Source of the DNA: a virus | Reading direction: 5' to 3' (one strand) | Length of the DNA stretch: 45,770 nucleotides | IMG/VR virus record: IMGVR_UViG_3300025135_000011 | Coordinates: 1-45,770 of that record | Shown here: positions 28,974 through 38,456 of the stretch, in pieces | How positions within the stretch are numbered: the first letter of the stretch is position 1 | Layout: each line of letters begins with the position of its first letter | The notes under the pieces: generated by a model | The model's input: only the letters and a program-made list of their open reading frames with translations | What the model was told of the DNA's origin: nothing | Databases searched by the model: none | Position numbers and translations under genes: made by a program

Positions 28974-29007
28974 CGGGCCTCCACAGGCGAGGCCCGCGTG
29001 TTTTTTT
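28974..29007 (+). terminator. Rho-independent terminator before/at the giant gene start
   Basis: The stem CGGGCCT (28974-28980) pairs with AGGCCCG (28990-28996), with a 9-base loop, then CGTG and seven T (29001-29007). The preceding 28885-28973 has no gene and holds one TCTGGAA word. The GTG start of the giant gene (28998) lies between the hairpin and the T run. Confidence 0.78.
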
Positions 29008-32000
29008 CCGACCTCTCCCCTTCACCGGGCCAGATCCACAAGGCGCACTCGGTCACGCTTTCGAAGGGGTTCGGGACGTGGGACGGGCTCCCTATCATCG
29101 CCATTGGCCCGCTGGGCGGGAAGATCGTCGGCTACTCAAAGGGTAAGCCCATCTACGCGGGCTCGAAGCAGGCGGCGAAGCTCGCCCAGCAGCAGAGTCA
29201 GGCGGCAGCTCACAAGGGGGACGACGAAGCCTCGGGGAGCACCCTCGGTGGCGTCATTGACGCGTGGCTGGAGCTACTGGGGTTCAAGTCAAAGGCCCAG
29301 TCGGGTTCCATGATCGCCTACTCCGCCGAGGACGCGGCGGAGCTGAAGGAGTATTTCGGCGTATCTGGAAAACCGATGAGCGGTGGTGCTGCCGTCGCGT
29401 TCGAGGCGAGTGTCTTCCAGCCGTTCGCCGGGAAGCCCCTCACGCCAAAGCTCGGGCAGGAGGTCTCGACACATGCCGCCCTCGCCTCGGGTACGTTTGG
29501 CGAGGACGCCCCCTGGACCAAAGAGGAGCTGGCGAAACTGTCCATCAAGGGCGGTCCACTCGGCTCGCACGGGCACACGTACATCGTCACGGACGGCAAG
29601 GGCGCCGAGGTCGGCATCTGGAAAACGAAGGACGCCACGATCTACCGCGCCGAGGAAGCCTGCGCGCGTATCGGCCAGCTCGTCTTTCCGAAACCCGCGT
29701 TGATCGCGAAAGCGGAGGTGGTGACTCTCGGTGGGGCGCAGGGGGTGCTGCTCTCGCACATCAAAGGCACAGAGCTGGGTGCGGAGTCGAGCCACAAAAT
29801 CTCCGACGCCAAGCTCCAGAAGCACGGCGTTCGCCTGATCCAGCATCAGGTGTTGGACTGGCTTCTGTCCAACCACGACGCGCACGGCGGGAACTTTCTC
29901 GTCACGCCCGACGGCGACGTCGCGGCCATCGACAAGGGGCAGGCGTGGCGCTTCGTCGGGAACGACAAGCTCACGGGCGACCTGTCGTACAACCCCAACA
30001 ACAAGAGCTACGGGCTCGCCGCGCAGCAAGTGTGGACGAGGTGGAAGGAAGGGTCGATCAAGCTCGACGAAAAGGAAGTGATCGCTGCTGTCGAGGAGGT
30101 GCTCGGCGGCATCGCTACGCTCTCGAAGGAGCAGTACGAGCAGATCATCGCGCCCTACCTCGCGCTGAAGCCTGCCTCCGTCAAGCCGGCGCTCGCACGG
30201 TTCGAGAGTATGCACGGGGACTGGGAGTCCTTTCTCTCGAAGCAGTTCGGGCACAAGGTCAAGCTGACGCCCTCTGTGAAGGGCGCAGAGGCGGCGCCTG
30301 CGCTGACCATCGTGGCGGACGTCCCCGCGCCTCCTGCGCCGGCTCCGAAGGCTCCGAAGCCTAAGCCAAAGGCCCCCGCCGTCGATGCGCCCGTGTCCGA
30401 GCCAAAGACGATGGTGGAGAAGCTGATCGAGGAGATCGACGCGCCACCCGCGCAACCCAAGCTCGTCATCCAGCTCCCCGGCTGGCCGAAGAAGAAAGGC
30501 AACGTCACGGTCCATCATCCGGGCAACCCGGCCCCTGCGACGTGGCCCGCGAAGTACCCTGGCCCCGGGTACAAGGCGACGGTCGTGTTCAAGGGCAAGC
30601 CGTACGGGTTCGATTTCGGCATCTCCCACGGCAAGCCTTTTGTGTCGGTCACCGATCCATCTGGAAAAGTGGTCAAGGAAGGCGCCTCTATTCAGGAGGC
30701 GGCGGACATCCCCTCGCTCATCGCGAAGGGTCTGCCTCTCAACCTGAGCAGCACGCAGAAGAAGAACATGGGCTACTCGGCCATGAAGCTCTTCCAGATT
30801 GCGGCGTTCGCGGACGACTTCGCGAACGTGTCAATGCTGAACGCCTCACCGGCCTCGGAGTCGGTGGCGGAGCTAGAGGCGACGCAGGTCGTCACGCCTG
30901 AGAAGAAGACGCTCAACCACCATGAGATCATCACAGCGTCGCTGGGCGGAGCCTTCAGCGGTGCGGTGTCCGACATGGCGCTGCTGCCGGTCGACGTACA
31001 GGACTATGTCTCGAACGCCCTCGCTTCGTACAAGTACGACGGCCCCTGGGGCGCGCCTTCGCTTGGGACCGTTTTCGTCGAGAAGATGGTCGGTGACGTT
31101 AGTGCTGGGGGTGGTGGTTACCTCGGTATCACTGCGATGGGTGTGTCTTTCGGGGGTGGTGGCCCCGTCTATCAGACGTGGAATCTCTTTCCAGACGGCA
31201 CTTTGATCGGGACCGGCGCGGCGTACCCTGACAGTCTCACGCTCTCTGGGATCAAGGCTGCGTTCCCAGCCCAGGAGGTCGCCATACCCGGCACCGAGGT
31301 CCCGGCGGCGCCGGTAAAGGGGGCGCTCACACCGTCGGACAACTTCGCCACCATGCCGAAGGGGACTGTCGTCGAGGGGCCATCTGGAAAGATGTACGAG
31401 GCGCTGGGCAACGGCGCGTGGAAGACGGGCACCTCGACCCTTTCCTCGACGGAGATGAAGGGAGTCGCGGTCGGTGGCCTCACGCTGGTCGAGGCGAGCG
31501 ACTACGACTATGTGCTGCCCCCCACACCCGGCACCGTCGTTGCCGCAACATTGCCGGTGATCGAGGCTGCGAAACTCGGTGCGGTGCTCGCGGGCAGCGC
31601 TGGCACCTACGAGAAGGTCGAGGATGGGGAGTGGAAAGAGGTCAACCTCAACGTCTACTTCAGCCCTATGGAGATGGCGGATGGGGCTCTGCACAAGGTC
31701 ATCGCCTGGCCGCTTGTTGGTTCGCCGCTTCCCGAGGCAACGCAGTCGAATATCGACGCACTCATGCAGGCGCCGATCGGATCGAAGGCGAAGCACCCGA
31801 AGGGACAGACCTATACGAAGGTGAGCCCGCCGGACAACGCCTGGGGCAGCTTCAGCGGCGTCTGGGTGGACTCCACCGGGCAGGAGCACAACTCGGGCGA
31901 CCTCGATCCAAGCGTCGAGATCGTCGAGGAGCTACCGCCCCCCGCGCAGAACGCGACCCCCGTATCAACGATGGTGCAGCCGAAGGTCGTCACTGACTTG

Positions 32001-35000
32001 GAGTCAGTGCCCGCCGCTGTGAAGGGCTGGGTGTCAAAGGTCTGGGACGCGCAGGTCGCGTTCGGCGCTACCTCGAAGCCTGGGGGACACACGGCCGCGC
32101 AGAAGTCGCCGCTGTGGGACGCGTGGGTGCCGCCCCCCGGTAAAGTCTTGGAAGGCGAGGTGGACGGCAAAAAGTTCTTCATGACGCAGGTTTTGTCGGG
32201 GTATCTCAACGACGGCTCGGCGGCGGCTTGCGTGCGGTTTGAAATCATCGACGAGCACGGCAACACTCAGTCCGGGGTACCGAATCCCAACGCTGAGAAG
32301 GCGCTCGGGTGGCCGATGGCGTGGGCGATCGGCGACCTCGCGTTCAACGATGAGGACCAGCTCCCGCCGTTCATCGCGAAGGCGAAGGCGGCTTTCAATC
32401 TGGAAAACGCGGCATTCCCCGCGAATAGCACCGCGCTCGACGACACGGCGCCGTCTGCTGACTCAGTGATCACGACGCCTCCCGAGGACATCCCCGCGAG
32501 CGAGCTGCCAAAGAAGGTCACGAAGAAAATCTCGTTAGCCGACGCCATCACGCTGCCCTCGACGAAGACGAAGTATGGCTTCCCAAGCGGTTTCTACTCG
32601 TCCCCGGCGAACACCGGAAAGTTCGGCGCGAACACTTCGTACATCAACGTGAAGGCATCGAACAACACGGTTGATTGGCCGAAGAAGCTCCAGATGTTCT
32701 TGGACGATCATGGCGTGCTCGCCTCGCACATCGTGGCGGGGCCGAGCACAAGCCAGTTTGGCGGTGCGTACGTCGTCATCAAGGACGAGGCTCTCGACGC
32801 CGAGACGCCGATCGAAGTCACGGTCGCGGAGGCAACGCAGACGACGCCTGATCCTGTGCCGGCCCCCTGGCCGGTGAAGGGCGAAGCGTTCGACGTACAG
32901 GCGATGCACAACGCACCCGGAGGCACGTACCTCACTAAGCTCGGCGAGGACGGCGTCCCGACGCACAAGTGGATCAAGGGCGGCACCGGCTTCTACACCG
33001 TCGACATCGAATCTGGAAAACTCGGTACCACGATCCTAGCGGGGGAGATGGCGGACATCTTCGCGCAAGGCGGCGTGTCCGTGACGACGGCGGAAGGCGA
33101 GACGGTCTACACACCGGATAAAGCCAACCATGAGTTGGCTGTTCTCATCGAGGCATCTTCCGGCAAGAAAGCGCAAGACCTGACGGCGTCAGCTCTGGCG
33201 GCGCTGCCCGTCGGGACGGTGCTGCTCGACGGTGAGGAGGATAATCCAAGTGTAGCGAACGCGGTGAAGCTCGCCTCCGATTCTTGGTTTGTGACGTTTG
33301 TCGGCGGAAACACAGGGTATTGGTCAAACGAACAGGCGCAGGGTAGCTGGATCGTTCAGGCGACGCCCGACTCCACGCCCCTCACCACGTCGGAGCACTT
33401 CGATGCCCTGCCGGTCGGCTCGATCGTCTCACAGGCACAATCCGGGGGGCCGGTAACCTACAAGAAGGACGTCAACGGGAAGTGGAAACTGGCACATCTC
33501 GTTCCCGGCGGGACTTTCACGGGCGCCGTGATGGCTAACGACGTGTCAAACGGCGCGTACACGCTGCTCACGCTCGGGGCCGCAGCCACACCGACCCCGC
33601 CAGCCACACCGACCGCGCCACCGCCGGTCACAGCGACTCCCGCGCTCCCAAAGAAGATCAACAAGAGCGCCACGAAAAAGTCGATCAAGGCACTGCTCGT
33701 CTCACTTCCCGTCGGAGTGAAGCTCACGCTGCCGAACGGATCTGTGCTGGAAAAGAACGAGGAGCTGTGGTGGACCCTCGACGGTAAAGGTCCCTGGGGC
33801 ACGTTCACCGCGTCCACGTATATCCACAAGCAGGGCGCCGCTATCACACCTCCAGGGATGGCGGCAGCCCCACCCCTGCCGGCGAAGCCGAAGCCACCAC
33901 CGAAGCCCGAGGACCCCGCCATTGCGGCGGCGAAGGCGGAGAAGCTGGCCGAGCAACTCGCGAAGTTCGCGAAGGCGAAGGAGTACGCGGTCTGGGCGAA
34001 AGCGAACCCGCAGCCGTGGGATGCCGTCACGCTTCAGGCGCTCTCCGCTTTCCAGAATAGCGGCAAGCCCCCACCGAAGCTCTACGCGCACACGCACACG
34101 TCGGGTGCTTCCGTCTCGTTGCTCCTCGGGTCGCCGGACTTCGACGCGTTGAAGCAGTCTGTCGACAACTGGGAGGGGTTCCCCCCGTACGAGGAGGTCG
34201 ACTCTCCGCTCGGTAAGCTCGTGAAGGTCGACCCCCAAGCCTTCGCTGATGTCTTCCCTAACGTCGGTGTGGTGGTCGGTCCCGACGGGGCGACGCACCC
34301 GAAGGGCACGACATTCTCCGAGAAGCAGGTCTCCACGGGCACCGTGGGCGCTGCGGTCAAGAAAGAGCCCGGCCACCACAAGACCGTGTCAGACACGACG
34401 TCACCGGCCGACACGGCAGCGGTGAAGTGGAAGTATGACGCTTACGGGACCGTAGAGGAAAAGGAAGCAGCGAAGGGACAAGCGCTCGCGTCGCTCGCGA
34501 AACACGGCCTCACTCCCACCGAAACTATCGTCGGCAGCGCAAACATCATCACGAAGGTTCCGCTCGCCGCGCTGGCAAAGGACACGGGCACCACGACTGA
34601 GGTCGTCGCGACCCCGCCGCCACAGCTCCCCGCGTTCGTGGCGGCGACTCCGCCATTCAGCGTTGGCGCGCAGCAGCAAGGCGCCATCGCGCTCAACAAC
34701 GAGGCGGACATCGACGTGTTCGACGTGATCAAGCCGGGCCTCCTCGGGCATTCCGTGCGGACTGGCGGCGCCGGCCTCTGGGCGAACTCGCAAGTGCGCA
34801 TGCGTAAAGTTATCGAATCTGGAAAAGAGTACGTGGAAGTGGTCGGAGATCTCGTACCACTCATGGGGGTGGCGAAGCCCCAAGGAACGTCGCACGTCAC
34901 ACTGAAGATCCCGAAGGCGAAGTATAGCGCCAATACGGGCAAACATACCGCCTCGGCCTTCTCACTCATCGACACGCAAGCGAATGGAACGACCCTGGCG

Positions 35001-36053
35001 AGTGGTACGACCATCGGTGTGTTCCACAGCAGTGACGGCGACTTCGTGATGGAAGGGACATGCGTCATCCGTGTCCCTGCGGAAAATATCTCGAACCTGC
35101 GCGCAGAGATGACCGCTGCGTTGAAGGCTGTCGGGGTGAGTGACGCGCTTGCGTCTTCGACACACGAAGCGAATGCGGAGCGTGTCTTCATCAAATCGCA
35201 AATCGTGCGTCGATGCCTTGGCTCGAAGGGCTGGGGCCAGAACGGTAAAGTCAAATCTTTCTCCGAAAGCGGCGCAGGGTACGGCAGCGGCAAGACTCCG
35301 ATCACGGAGATGCACAACGAGGCGTGGCTCGACGAGCAGCTCAAGAAGTTCAAGGCCGAGCACCTTGTCGCTACCGCCGTTATCCGCGTGACATCGGGCG
35401 GGCAGCATTCAGTGTGGCTAGACGAACCCTCGGACGTAGACCTGGCGAACAACGTGCGCTTCGTACAATCCGGTCAGAAGGCTGAGGTTGCTAAATCGGC
35501 GATCTTCTCCGGCATAGGGCAGCCCTCTTTGAAGGCGCGTGTGATCGCAGGGCTCAGTGGCCCCGGCACGGGTCACGCCTCTAGCGACCTCACGGCGGGC
35601 GGCGACGGCTCGATGTTCCGTACCGTAGGGTGGGACTCGGGCGGCATACCGTTCGGTAACTGCGGCGGCACCGGCCAGGTAGCTGCCCGCATGATAGCGC
35701 ACCCACGGGTCCTCCGCCGGGCGGACTGCCGGATACACAAGGGGGATTTCGGATACCACCACAAGGACCAAACTGGCGCCGGCGAGTCAGCGTTCAACCA
35801 TGTGACTGACTCCGTCATGCAGTACGGGGGGTACAACGAGACTTTGCACGAGGGAGGTATCGGCGCCGAAGACTTTGCCGGTTGCTGGGTAAATACCGAC
35901 GACGTCAAGCAGGAAATGCTTGCCGAAGCGGCGAAGCGCAACGTCACACACATCAACACGATCCCCGTCGAGAAGTTCTTCTTCACAAGCAGCGAAACGC
36001 AATCGGCCATTCACAAGGCGTGCGAGGGGCTGAAGCCTGGGGTGCTGCCGTGA
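28998..36053 (+). CDS. Giant modular protein, 2351 aa, with atypical-kinase-like N-terminal domain
   Basis: Residues ~39-54 hold a divergent tag (GGKIVGYSKGKPIYAG). Residues ~190-390 look like an atypical kinase of the HipA/PI3-kinase type: VGIWK (K209), LLSNHDAHGGNFLV (D294, N299) and AAIDKGQAW (D312). The middle repeats a small module of the form LPVG-x-x-V...G-x-x-Y-x-K...G-x-W at least six times (about 31340-33850), separated by Pro/Ala linkers. The C-terminal ~500 residues contain YVEVVGDLVPLMGV and a glycine-rich stretch ending DLTAGGDGSMFRTVGWDS. I recall that stretch from large phage proteins but cannot assign it. It is likely a virion or injected protein. The start GTG 28998 lacks a Shine-Dalgarno sequence and is uncertain. 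Confidence 0.75.
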   Translation: MFFSDLSPSPGQIHKAHSVTLSKGFGTWDGLPIIAIGPLGGKIVGYSKGKPIYAGSKQAAKLAQQQSQAAAHKGDDEASGSTLGGVIDAWLELLGFKSKAQSGSMIAYSAEDAAELKEYFGVSGKPMSGGAAVAFEASVFQPFAGKPLTPKLGQEVSTHAALASGTFGEDAPWTKEELAKLSIKGGPLGSHGHTYIVTDGKGAEVGIWKTKDATIYRAEEACARIGQLVFPKPALIAKAEVVTLGGAQGVLLSHIKGTELGAESSHKISDAKLQKHGVRLIQHQVLDWLLSNHDAHGGNFLVTPDGDVAAIDKGQAWRFVGNDKLTGDLSYNPNNKSYGLAAQQVWTRWKEGSIKLDEKEVIAAVEEVLGGIATLSKEQYEQIIAPYLALKPASVKPALARFESMHGDWESFLSKQFGHKVKLTPSVKGAEAAPALTIVADVPAPPAPAPKAPKPKPKAPAVDAPVSEPKTMVEKLIEEIDAPPAQPKLVIQLPGWPKKKGNVTVHHPGNPAPATWPAKYPGPGYKATVVFKGKPYGFDFGISHGKPFVSVTDPSGKVVKEGASIQEAADIPSLIAKGLPLNLSSTQKKNMGYSAMKLFQIAAFADDFANVSMLNASPASESVAELEATQVVTPEKKTLNHHEIITASLGGAFSGAVSDMALLPVDVQDYVSNALASYKYDGPWGAPSLGTVFVEKMVGDVSAGGGGYLGITAMGVSFGGGGPVYQTWNLFPDGTLIGTGAAYPDSLTLSGIKAAFPAQEVAIPGTEVPAAPVKGALTPSDNFATMPKGTVVEGPSGKMYEALGNGAWKTGTSTLSSTEMKGVAVGGLTLVEASDYDYVLPPTPGTVVAATLPVIEAAKLGAVLAGSAGTYEKVEDGEWKEVNLNVYFSPMEMADGALHKVIAWPLVGSPLPEATQSNIDALMQAPIGSKAKHPKGQTYTKVSPPDNAWGSFSGVWVDSTGQEHNSGDLDPSVEIVEELPPPAQNATPVSTMVQPKVVTDLESVPAAVKGWVSKVWDAQVAFGATSKPGGHTAAQKSPLWDAWVPPPGKVLEGEVDGKKFFMTQVLSGYLNDGSAAACVRFEIIDEHGNTQSGVPNPNAEKALGWPMAWAIGDLAFNDEDQLPPFIAKAKAAFNLENAAFPANSTALDDTAPSADSVITTPPEDIPASELPKKVTKKISLADAITLPSTKTKYGFPSGFYSSPANTGKFGANTSYINVKASNNTVDWPKKLQMFLDDHGVLASHIVAGPSTSQFGGAYVVIKDEALDAETPIEVTVAEATQTTPDPVPAPWPVKGEAFDVQAMHNAPGGTYLTKLGEDGVPTHKWIKGGTGFYTVDIESGKLGTTILAGEMADIFAQGGVSVTTAEGETVYTPDKANHELAVLIEASSGKKAQDLTASALAALPVGTVLLDGEEDNPSVANAVKLASDSWFVTFVGGNTGYWSNEQAQGSWIVQATPDSTPLTTSEHFDALPVGSIVSQAQSGGPVTYKKDVNGKWKLAHLVPGGTFTGAVMANDVSNGAYTLLTLGAAATPTPPATPTAPPPVTATPALPKKINKSATKKSIKALLVSLPVGVKLTLPNGSVLEKNEELWWTLDGKGPWGTFTASTYIHKQGAAITPPGMAAAPPLPAKPKPPPKPEDPAIAAAKAEKLAEQLAKFAKAKEYAVWAKANPQPWDAVTLQALSAFQNSGKPPPKLYAHTHTSGASVSLLLGSPDFDALKQSVDNWEGFPPYEEVDSPLGKLVKVDPQAFADVFPNVGVVVGPDGATHPKGTTFSEKQVSTGTVGAAVKKEPGHHKTVSDTTSPADTAAVKWKYDAYGTVEEKEAAKGQALASLAKHGLTPTETIVGSANIITKVPLAALAKDTGTTTEVVATPPPQLPAFVAATPPFSVGAQQQGAIALNNEADIDVFDVIKPGLLGHSVRTGGAGLWANSQVRMRKVIESGKEYVEVVGDLVPLMGVAKPQGTSHVTLKIPKAKYSANTGKHTASAFSLIDTQANGTTLASGTTIGVFHSSDGDFVMEGTCVIRVPAENISNLRAEMTAALKAVGVSDALASSTHEANAERVFIKSQIVRRCLGSKGWGQNGKVKSFSESGAGYGSGKTPITEMHNEAWLDEQLKKFKAEHLVATAVIRVTSGGQHSVWLDEPSDVDLANNVRFVQSGQKAEVAKSAIFSGIGQPSLKARVIAGLSGPGTGHASSDLTAGGDGSMFRTVGWDSGGIPFGNCGGTGQVAARMIAHPRVLRRADCRIHKGDFGYHHKDQTGAGESAFNHVTDSVMQYGGYNETLHEGGIGAEDFAGCWVNTDDVKQEMLAEAAKRNVTHINTIPVEKFFFTSSETQSAIHKACEGLKPGVLP
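31340..33850 (+). repeat. Degenerate small-domain repeats inside the giant protein
   Basis: Coding repeats appear near 31340 (MPKGTVVEGPSGKMYEALG), 31570 (KLGAVLAGSAGTYEKVEDGE), 31760 (APIGSKAKHPKGQTYTKV), 33190 (LPVGTVLLDGE), 33400 (LPVGSIV, then VTYKKDVNGKWKL) and 33690 (LPVGVKLTLPNGSVLEKN). Each has a turn, a G-T/S-x-V strand, a Y-x-K strand and a tryptophan. They are divergent, so they are old duplications rather than recent copies. Confidence 0.6.
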
Positions 36054-36851: not shown

Positions 36852-38456
36852 ATGTCGTCTGCGTTCCAGTTCTTCGCGCCTCTCGCGTTCTTCGAGAAAG
36901 CGTCCGCCCCCGAAGGCAAGCGCAAGCGCATCGCTGGTGTGATCTCGACGGAAGACCTCGACAAGCAAGGCGAGGTCATCATCCAGAAGGGCCTCGACCT
37001 CGCACCCTTCCTGAAGGAAGGGTGGTTCAACGACAACCACAGCAAGAAGACCGCTGACGTGCTCGGGTACCCCGAAGGCGTCACGCAGTTCGCGAAAGGC
37101 GAGCGCTTGCCTGACGGCAACACCGCGCCCACCGCCCTGACATGGGCAGAGGGCTACCTGCTCGACACCCCCGAAGCCTCCCGCATCTGGGACCTGGGCA
37201 ACGCGCTCAAGAAGGCAGGCGGCTCTCGCCGCCTGGGTTTCAGCATCGAAGGTGCCGTACAGAAGCGCACCGGCCCCGCAGGGCGTGTGGTTGCGAAGGC
37301 GCTCGTGCGAAACGTGGCGATCACCAACTGTTTTCCGGGTGACGTCCGCGTGAGCGGCGCTGCCGAGAAGGTGACGCGGCGCGCGTACTCAGGCCCCATG
37401 ATCGAGCTGACACTCGCGACGGGTGAGAAGATCACCGGAACACCGAATCACCCGGTACTCACGCAGCGTGGGTGGGTGGCCCTTGGTGAGTTGGTGGAAG
37501 GCCAAGACCGCGTTGGCCGTTTCGACCGTGACCTCGTCCCTACGCCGTCGATCCCCCATGACGTACAGGACATGCCAGCCCCGCTCCAGGAGGTGTTCGA
37601 TCTTGCGCTTCTCTCCAAGGCGACCCGTTGGGTCGGTCTTGCTGGAGAAGCTGAGTTCCACGGCGACGTCTCCGACAGCGATGTCGATGTTGTACTTGCC
37701 GAAGGACTTCTGAAGGAACGGCTGGAGTCCTCGTTTTTCCAGAAGTTCGGCAAGGAGGCGCTCCCCGCCTCCGACAAAGAGCTGCCGAGCCTCGCGAGTG
37801 ACGGACTTCGCGCGCAGCTCCTTGAGGGAGGCTTTCTTGCTGCGCCGAGCGACGTTCGCGGCGTGAACCAGCTCCTTTCGCTCGGTGGCGGTGCGGAGTT
37901 GGTTCCGACGAACCTGTTCCTCATGCCTGCTGCGGACAACGCCAAAACGCTTGGCGATGTCGTTCACAGTCCAGCGGTGCAAGCCAAAGCGTTCAGCGAG
38001 GAGCCCCGCACCCTCTCCAGCCGCGTAGGCTTCAGCCACATTGCGAGCAAGCGTTTCGTCGATGGGTTTGTGGGCCACGTCTTCAACCTCCAGACGTCGC
38101 ACGGATGGTACGACGCAAACGGCATTGTGGCACACAACTGCCCCGTGGGTGAAGGGACGCGACTCGAAGTTCTTGCGAAGAGCCTCGGGGACGTGGAGAA
38201 GGGCCTCTCTATGGGGGAGGCGACTCCGGGCTCCAAGCCCGCTGGGCCGAAGTCAGGCCCCGGCGCCGGGCAAGTGCTCGCGCCGCAGTCGTTAGAGCAA
38301 GACGGGCAGCAGCGCTTGCTTGACGACGGCGACGATAAGGAGATCTCGAAGTCGGCCGCTGTCGCGCGCATCCAGCATCGCTTCGCTTGCTCACCACAAA
38401 CCGCCGAACGTCTTTTCCAGACGATCGGCATCCTGAAGGACAACGACCTTCTCTGA
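36852..38456 (+). CDS. Prohead protease interrupted by an intein
   Basis: The 534-residue precursor equals ~159 N-extein residues, a 270-residue intein and a ~105-residue C-extein. The extein reads as a head maturation protease: GVISTEDLDKQGEVI, a histidine in WFNDNHSKKT (His63), a serine in RLGFSIEG (Ser131), and VRNVAITN joined to CPVGEGTRLEV. That is the HK97-type layout with the conserved Pro after the beta strand. The insertion lies exactly at this conserved region, as expected for homing elements. The C-extein tail may be a scaffold-like segment. Excision needs Cys160, Asn429 and Cys430, all present. ATG 36852 follows GGGAGG. Confidence 0.88.
   Translation: MSSAFQFFAPLAFFEKASAPEGKRKRIAGVISTEDLDKQGEVIIQKGLDLAPFLKEGWFNDNHSKKTADVLGYPEGVTQFAKGERLPDGNTAPTALTWAEGYLLDTPEASRIWDLGNALKKAGGSRRLGFSIEGAVQKRTGPAGRVVAKALVRNVAITNCFPGDVRVSGAAEKVTRRAYSGPMIELTLATGEKITGTPNHPVLTQRGWVALGELVEGQDRVGRFDRDLVPTPSIPHDVQDMPAPLQEVFDLALLSKATRWVGLAGEAEFHGDVSDSDVDVVLAEGLLKERLESSFFQKFGKEALPASDKELPSLASDGLRAQLLEGGFLAAPSDVRGVNQLLSLGGGAELVPTNLFLMPAADNAKTLGDVVHSPAVQAKAFSEEPRTLSSRVGFSHIASKRFVDGFVGHVFNLQTSHGWYDANGIVAHNCPVGEGTRLEVLAKSLGDVEKGLSMGEATPGSKPAGPKSGPGAGQVLAPQSLEQDGQQRLLDDGDDKEISKSAAVARIQHRFACSPQTAERLFQTIGILKDNDLL
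37389..38078 (-). CDS. Antisense homing endonuclease candidate nested in the intein
   Basis: A 229-residue protein on the minus strand, codon-aligned with the intein frame. The start is GTG at 38078-38076, seven bases after a GGAGGT at 38091-38086. The N-terminal part has a helix-turn-helix: AEAYAAGEGAGLLAERFGLH followed by RWTVNDIAKRFGV (37938-38048). After a basic linker comes a nuclease-like core: GERLLAELLEKRG, FGKYNIDIAVGDVAVELSFS, and KIEHLLERGWHVLYV (about 37560-37770). Candidate catalytic residues are the E of GE, the D of NIDIA and the E of VAVELS, as in Vsr/EDxHD-type PD-(D/E)xK homing enzymes. The frame could extend to a GTG at 38135. It would cleave intein-free protease alleles. 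No promoter was identified. Long antisense frames are common in GC-rich DNA, but motif content and the ribosome site argue for a real gene. Confidence 0.72.
   Translation of the reverse strand: MAHKPIDETLARNVAEAYAAGEGAGLLAERFGLHRWTVNDIAKRFGVVRSRHEEQVRRNQLRTATERKELVHAANVARRSKKASLKELRAKSVTREARQLFVGGGERLLAELLEKRGLQPFLQKSFGKYNIDIAVGDVAVELSFSSKTDPTGRLGEKRKIEHLLERGWHVLYVMGDRRRRDEVTVETANAVLAFHQLTKGHPPTLREYRVIRCSGDLLTRRECQLDHGA
38086..38091 (-). promoter_or_regulatory. Shine-Dalgarno for the antisense nuclease gene
   Basis: GGAGGT on the minus strand, with a 7-base spacer to GTG 38078. On the plus strand the same bases encode N-L of intein block F (VFNLQTS). It matches the strength of the phage's other ribosome sites (GAGGAGGTTGAG). 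Confidence 0.7.

Follow-up and report, generated by a model that had tools for sequence, protein, structure and literature searches.

An intein in a phage head maturation protease carries a putative Vsr-superfamily homing endonuclease gene on its complementary strand

Analysis of a 45,770-nucleotide viral DNA (IMG/VR record IMGVR_UViG_3300025135_000011, positions 1 to 45,770; referred to here as the window) revealed a single segment that, with high probability, encodes an intein on its sense strand and, on its antisense strand, a nuclease of the Vsr superfamily that would home into intein-less alleles of the interrupted gene. A preliminary description of this DNA had proposed that splicing and nuclease are divided between the two strands of the same 0.8 kb, and that proposal is supported by the codon constraint on the antisense strand, the predicted fold of its product and the intein motifs of the sense strand. 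At the level of the family it is near certain that the antisense gene is real. The sequence evidence makes it likely that the nuclease is the homing endonuclease of its own intein, and the protein would be made in infected cells. The sense-strand features of the locus are as follows.

36852-37328, + strand: N-extein, head maturation protease codons 1-159 (from phrog_1028 and intein-less homologues)
37329-38138, + strand: intein, 270 aa, with a Hint splicing domain (residues 1-66 and about 230-270) and a long, mostly unstructured middle
37329-37331, + strand: block A with the catalytic Cys1, read from the sequence and invariant in the homologue alignment
37440-37451, + strand: block B, TPNH (T38PNH41), with T38 and H41 invariant in the homologue alignment
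37656-37667, + strand: FHGD motif in the sense reading, opposite the nuclease active-site strand VAVE, with constraint on both strands
38079-38090, + strand: core of block F, VFNL (residues 251-254), where the codons AAC CTC CAG are the source of the antisense Shine-Dalgarno sequence
38133-38138, + strand: block G, His269-Asn270, read from the sequence, with Cys+1 at 38139-38141
38139-38456, + strand: C-extein of the protease, from sequence comparison with intein-less alleles

Residues 3-158 of the N-extein match the head maturation protease family phrog_1028 (E 2.5e-33), intein-less homologues of the protease read without interruption across the insertion site (...ITNCPVG...), and the joined exteins of the window give a normal conserved protease sequence. 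Blocks A, B, F and G had been described as intact, and all four were found, with Cys1, the TxxH motif, the terminal Asn and a Cys, Ser or Thr at +1 (Cys in the window) present in the window and in nearly all homologues. The window intein scores above the family cut-off of NCBIfam intein_Nterm, and Pfam Intein_splicing was matched by 35 of 36 sense homologues. In the structural model of the sense intein only the two ends (residues 1-66 and about 230-270) reach a pLDDT of 91-96, with block means of 73-90 for residues of about 80-130 and values below 50 for residues 166-229; the top Foldseek match of this model is the Mtu RecA intein (2imz, E 1.2e-3). A family scan of the 36 sense inteins found no endonuclease family, the matches being to Intein_splicing, related Hint families and chance hits, in agreement with the earlier observation that the sense middle has no LAGLIDADG or HNH motif. 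A bifunctional intein with an in-frame LAGLIDADG or HNH endonuclease was rejected because the sense polypeptides lack a nuclease family and their middle is mostly unstructured. Elsewhere in the head region of the window, a 2351-aa ORF (28998-36053, + strand) has no PHROG match.

The complementary strand of the intein carries the following features.

37389-38078, - strand: antisense nuclease gene, 229 aa, with a GTG start at 38078 and its stop at 37389
38087-38091, - strand: Shine-Dalgarno-like GGAGG, 8 nt upstream of the GTG start, from the sequence and the CTC bias of the block F Leu
37941-38066, - strand: helix-turn-helix, antisense residues 5-46 (AlphaFold helices 8-19, 24-31 and 35-44; helix-turn-helix chains align at residues 5-46)
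37416-37781, - strand: Vsr-like nuclease domain, antisense residues 100-221 (VIA-align to 1cw0 and 3r3p; Pfam REase_MTES_1575 in homologues)
37761-37763, - strand: Glu106, putative active-site Glu on the leading helix, at least 90% conserved
37683-37685, - strand: Asp132, putative metal ligand, invariant in homologues
37656-37658, - strand: Glu141, putative metal ligand, invariant in homologues

As originally reported, the complement is open from 38135 to 37389 and aligned codon on codon with the intein frame, and the reported length of 229 residues agrees with initiation at the GTG that follows GGAGG (38078-38076), which is the likely start. The length of this frame was rejected as evidence for a gene, since more than 10 minus-strand ORFs of the window, the GC content of which is 64%, are longer, and the gene for the major head protein is equally free of antisense stops (0 in 479 codons). 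Conservation of the YRVIRG motif and of the start region was likewise rejected as independent evidence, because both lie opposite the conserved blocks B and F. None of ten other long minus-strand ORFs scanned in the window matched a Pfam family at E 0.1; the antisense gene had been called the only convincing minus-strand gene in the window, a view that holds against these ten ORFs, to which the comparison is limited. Because openness alone is uninformative in the window, evidence was drawn instead from relatives, substitutions by codon position, codon bias at the ribosome site and the fold of the product.

Searches with tblastn, using either the antisense protein or the sense intein, arrived at a common set of phage loci, for the most part "head morphogenesis" or MuF-like genes, and at each locus examined the sense gene contains an intein and the antisense frame is open with its start opposite block F. 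A single, pattern-limited scan of viral contigs with the antisense alignment gave 163 related places, of which 80 were kept; genome contigs added two further, distant loci, and single-protein scans of viral contigs yielded one locus each. The opposite, codon-aligned frame is stop-free across the nuclease match in all 83 loci examined, and nearly all of them have the block B and block F-G motifs. As 80 of the loci were found by nuclease-derived patterns, their stop-free state is in part a result of how they were selected, which does not affect the tests of codon position and codon bias. The interrupted genes encode MuF or minor head proteins, portal-MuF fusions, the terminase large subunit, DNA polymerase and, at locus L024, a deaminase-like protein, in addition to the protease of the window, and the carriers include phages of Salmonella, Escherichia, Gordonia, Aggregatibacter, Klebsiella, Idiomarinaceae and others, as well as many uncultured phages. 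The arrangement is a widespread phage class and not a singleton. Within it the window nuclease forms a long branch, with a best identity to its relatives of 34%.

Most of the records seen are annotated on the sense gene only; Salmonella phage PK1 (L011:1004-1813, - strand) is among the few in which the antisense ORF is annotated, as a hypothetical protein. What the profile of phrog_15127 ("head protein") recognises is the intein, whether its host is a terminase, a DNA polymerase or a MuF gene, and the family label thereby spreads wrong "head protein" annotations. In Virus Rctr197k (L024:1123-2475) the same kind of intein interrupts the gene that is deaminase-like by its sequence, and the annotation as a head morphogenesis protein is probably due to the intein. 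At L005:2392-2899 (+ strand), in a minus-strand portal-MuF ORF, the sense intein frame stops prematurely after block B and the antisense nuclease core is open, which may point to an intein in decay or to a frameshift.

In a codon-on-codon pair, sense position 1 lies opposite antisense position 3. Among 14 distinct Guernseyvirinae genes, all 1,860 nt long and ungapped, variable columns at sense positions 1/2/3 number 142/92/318 in the exteins and 119/29/64 in intein residues 61-248 (Fisher p 3e-15 versus exteins), with counts of 1/1/12 in the last 22 intein residues, comprising blocks F-G. The same reversal was observed in six further clades (Gordonia Vividuovirus, L021/L022, L055/L080, L043/L093, L070/L101 and L084/L086/L104). 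For the intein middle, dN/dS (Nei-Gojobori, Jukes-Cantor) is 0.10-0.29 in the antisense reading and 0.64-1.32 in the sense reading, and the exteins show the reverse. The codons TTA, CTA and TCA, which are antisense stops, occur 0 times in 13,850 intein codons of 57 non-redundant loci, where about 200 would be expected, a zero that is partly ascertained because the loci were chosen by antisense similarity; in the exteins of the same 57 loci they account for 332 of 23,030 codons (1.44%). The preliminary description had suggested comparing codon constraint on the two strands of homologous inteins, and in the middle of the intein it falls on the antisense strand, which has no stops. At the family level, represented by seven clades other than that of the window copy, the antisense product is under purifying selection. 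A small region is constrained in both readings: the sense residues F-H-G-D, opposite antisense VAVE, are kept in most loci, and the antisense third positions opposite them are frozen (GAA in 49, GTG in 47 and GCC in 55 of the 57 loci), so the sense residues there are also selected.

The start signals of the nuclease lie within a splicing block, the start codon being opposite the His that precedes VYNL and the Shine-Dalgarno sequence opposite Asn-Leu-Gln. The block F Leu is encoded by CTC in 36 of 48 cases, compared with 30% in exteins (p 2e-10); CAT, which is ATG on the antisense strand, encodes the His facing the start in 33 of 43, compared with 33% (p 5e-8). A Shine-Dalgarno sequence of at least 4 nt was found upstream of the start in 55 of 71 distinct loci. 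At L070 and L101 a strong one (AGGAGG or GGAGG, 7 nt before ATG) lies further inside the intein and replaces that of block F. A promoter scan found no sigma-70-like promoter on the minus strand near the window nuclease gene, and in phage jersey the sole minus-strand promoter site lies ~870 nt before the start of the nuclease gene, with predicted terminators in between. That expression of the nuclease is uncoupled from that of the protease, as had been suggested, is plausible.

The AlphaFold (AF2) model of the window antisense protein, built from 47 aligned sequences, is confident over its full length (pLDDT 92.7). Its top Foldseek match is the catalytic domain of I-Bth0305I (3r3p, E 4.9e-3, probability 1.00); the Foldseek E-values for this model are modest, none being 0.001 or below. 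VIA-align superposed it on Vsr (1cw0) with Z 9.9 and an r.m.s. deviation of 3.1 over 112 aligned residues, and on I-Bth0305I with Z 9.8 and 3.5 over 94. Pfam REase_MTES_1575 was matched by 48 and HTH_7 by 33 of 57 antisense homologues, the nuclease and helix-turn-helix families matching the antisense strand only, and a PDB profile search matched the endonuclease-like 3hrl (E 1.9e-5). Scanned alone, the window protein gives only weak scores (MTES_1575, E 0.09-0.12), and the informative scans are those at family level. Asp132 and Glu141 are invariant in the 57 sequences and Glu106 is at least 90% conserved, with all three intact in the window. The 57-sequence alignment contains no invariant catalytic Lys or His, and the alignments have no invariant His or second Asp after Glu141, where the window reads VELSFSSKTDP. 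Strict EDxHD membership was rejected, as the xHD part of the signature is not conserved. The reading of the complement as a helix-turn-helix plus nuclease core is borne out by AlphaFold, Foldseek and VIA-align, and structure prediction, which had been proposed as a check, gave a confident helix-turn-helix and Vsr-like fold with I-Bth0305I and Vsr as the best solved matches; of the assignment to Vsr/EDxHD nucleases, the Vsr-like fold stands and the strict EDxHD signature does not. The antisense protein is very likely a helix-turn-helix nuclease of the Vsr superfamily.

Comparison of closely related genomes indicated that these inteins are mobile. In contig L122 exactly the 810-bp intein of the window is missing, with 121 of 121 nucleotides identical on the left and 99.88% identity over 7,518 nt on the right; such a 99.9%-identical empty allele suggests a recent gain of the intein in the window. 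Two of the nine SNPs between the two sequences lie 18 and 21 nt from the insertion site (P 2.7e-4), compatible with co-conversion or a changed target. In many Guernseyvirinae records the MuF gene gave two matching pieces that together span about 1,044 nt, as would be expected if the 816-bp intein were absent. Among Gordonia phages whose exteins are 95-98% identical, one MuF site is empty in some and occupied in others by a 948-bp intein or by an unrelated one of 825 bp; the two unrelated antisense-nuclease inteins at this single insertion site are those of L021/L022 and L002/L019/L020 (825 and 948 bp). Between Salmonella phage PST-H1 and Escherichia phage Snoke the intein is 97.7% identical and the N-extein 68.7%. 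Precise presence and absence among near-identical genomes and transfer between diverged ones, as expected of homing, were both found, and by these comparisons inteins of the class are transferred horizontally.

A free-standing homologue of the nuclease (HMM E 7.6e-49) was identified in Acinetobacter phage BUCT629 (L113:1501-2394), in antisense orientation and adjoining an intein-less MuF gene, with many stops in all opposite frames; phages IME285 and P1068 also match by tblastn, with scores identical to those of BUCT629. The BUCT629 homologue nests among intein-borne copies, in a seven-row clade with support of 99/92, and probably escaped from an intein. Similarity of the antisense nuclease to annotated free-standing phage homing endonucleases is weak.

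Four other explanations were weighed against an antisense homing nuclease. A GC-rich artefact, in which an ordinary intein has an antisense frame conserved only as a reflection of its sense strand, can hardly be entertained: longer chance antisense ORFs do occur in the window, and conservation of YRVIRG and the start region is partly forced by the blocks opposite, but the codon-position pattern is reversed in the middle of the intein in seven clades, which refutes the artefact, with mis-registration excluded for the Guernseyvirinae by their ungapped genes of one length. Neither the antisense dN/dS of 0.1-0.3, the codon bias for a Shine-Dalgarno sequence and ATG, the confident Vsr-like fold with family matches on the antisense strand only, nor a free-standing homologue without an intein fits such an artefact, and the ten other long antisense ORFs without a Pfam match at E 0.1 also speak against it. 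It is most unlikely, too, that the sense middle (FHGD...VDIV) is a functional module to which the antisense protein is secondary. The frozen antisense third positions opposite FHGD and the intermediate pLDDT of residues of about 80-130 would favour such a module, yet dN/dS is near 1 across the sense middle as a whole, the middle is mostly predicted to be unstructured with family matches to the intein domain only, and the FHGD motif takes up little of the antisense gene.

Given a real and selected nuclease, a role other than homing, such as attack on competing phages or host DNA, or regulation, with the gene simply riding in the intein, is decidedly improbable. A helix-turn-helix joined to a Vsr-like domain would also fit restriction- or repair-like roles, and the lack of an invariant catalytic Lys or His in the alignment counts in the same direction; against this, the closest catalytic domain of solved structure belongs to a homing endonuclease, the setting within an intein, the exact empty alleles and the incongruence of intein and exteins all agree with homing, and the two SNPs close to the insertion site and the weak similarity to annotated phage homing endonucleases point the same way. 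There is a slight but real chance that the class is genuine and the window copy itself degenerate, a dead nuclease whose frame persists solely through the need of the sense strand for an uninterrupted reading. Degeneration is a common stage in the cycle of homing genes, and the long branch, the GTG start and the weak single-sequence family scores of the window copy are what a dead copy might show, but its frame has no antisense stop, Glu106, Asp132 and Glu141 are intact, a canonical GGAGG stands 8 nt before the start, the model is confident over the full length, and the nearly identical empty allele suggests that the intein was gained recently.

Under the preferred reading, of an intein with an antisense homing nuclease, the sense strand would be translated into a protease-intein precursor in which residues 1-66 and 230-270, the two halves of the Hint domain, bring about splicing and regenerate the protease, the middle serving as a mostly unstructured linker between them. 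The antisense strand, read from the Shine-Dalgarno sequence and start opposite block F, would yield the 229-aa helix-turn-helix and Vsr-superfamily nuclease. This enzyme may recognise and cut the intein-less allele at the ITN|CPV site, and repair from the intein-bearing phage would copy the intein in, with co-conversion of neighbouring bases, so that cutting of the empty site would drive the spread of the intein. The nuclease would have evolved under selection while the sense strand needed only a stop-free linker, and the sense frame would stay open because the complements of the stop codons, TTA, CTA and TCA (Leu/Ser), are easily avoided. We regard it as reasonably probable that these loci represent a widespread and hitherto unrecognised class of mobile element in which one DNA segment is obliged to code in both directions, with an intein on the sense strand, a homing nuclease on the complement, splicing blocks that supply the ribosome-binding site and start, and at least one patch, FHGD/VAVE, selected at the amino-acid level on both strands.

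The textbook intein is a bifunctional protein that has its endonuclease within the polypeptide undergoing splicing. With mobility and splicing on separate strands, one polypeptide need not fold as both enzymes, and intein and nuclease could be expressed separately; if this is true, opposite transcription would separate the timing of the nuclease from that of a late head gene. Annotation of the sense strand only would mean that an unrecognised nuclease gene lies hidden in many "head morphogenesis protein" entries. The class also offers a large, replicated natural case of double coding at one locus, in which selection is measurable on both strands and the start signals lie inside a conserved protein motif, with empty sites as controls and the free-standing homologue serving as a negative one.

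Canonical bifunctional inteins carry a LAGLIDADG or, rarely, an HNH endonuclease in frame. They share with the present elements the Hint domain, an endonuclease between blocks B and F and spread to intein-less alleles; they differ in that their endonuclease normally belongs to the same polypeptide and strand, whereas here the other strand encodes it as a separate protein and the middle of the sense product is a linker. Dassa and colleagues reportedly described, in 2009, fractured genes that contain split inteins with a homing endonuclease nearby; there the nuclease gene lies between the split halves, whereas in the window it overlaps a contiguous intein on the other strand. The BUCT629 gene belongs to the same nuclease family, is also in antisense orientation and adjoins the same kind of target gene, but has no intein and an opposite strand full of stops. 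I-Bth0305I, which is intron-encoded, resembles the window protein in its nuclease fold (3r3p, Z 9.8), phage setting, helix-turn-helix-type DNA-binding parts and homing context; unlike the latter it is not antisense in an intein, and the window family lacks the strict xHD of the EDxHD Vsr-like homing endonucleases reviewed in PMC3943268. No antisense homing endonuclease gene within an intein was found in the open-access literature, and subscription papers may describe one. Group I introns are known to harbour homing genes in antisense orientation, and within the open-access literature the intein version appears to be new. A close parallel is provided by the SSU rDNA group I introns of Porphyra, in which genes for His-Cys box homing endonucleases lie on the complementary strand (PMC2585584). 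These too are self-splicing mobile elements with the homing endonuclease gene antisense to the host gene, but their host strand is a ribosomal RNA intron with the endonuclease gene in a peripheral extension and no double coding (PMC2585584), whereas in the window the two strands of an intein both encode protein, one codon opposite another, and the nuclease is of another family.
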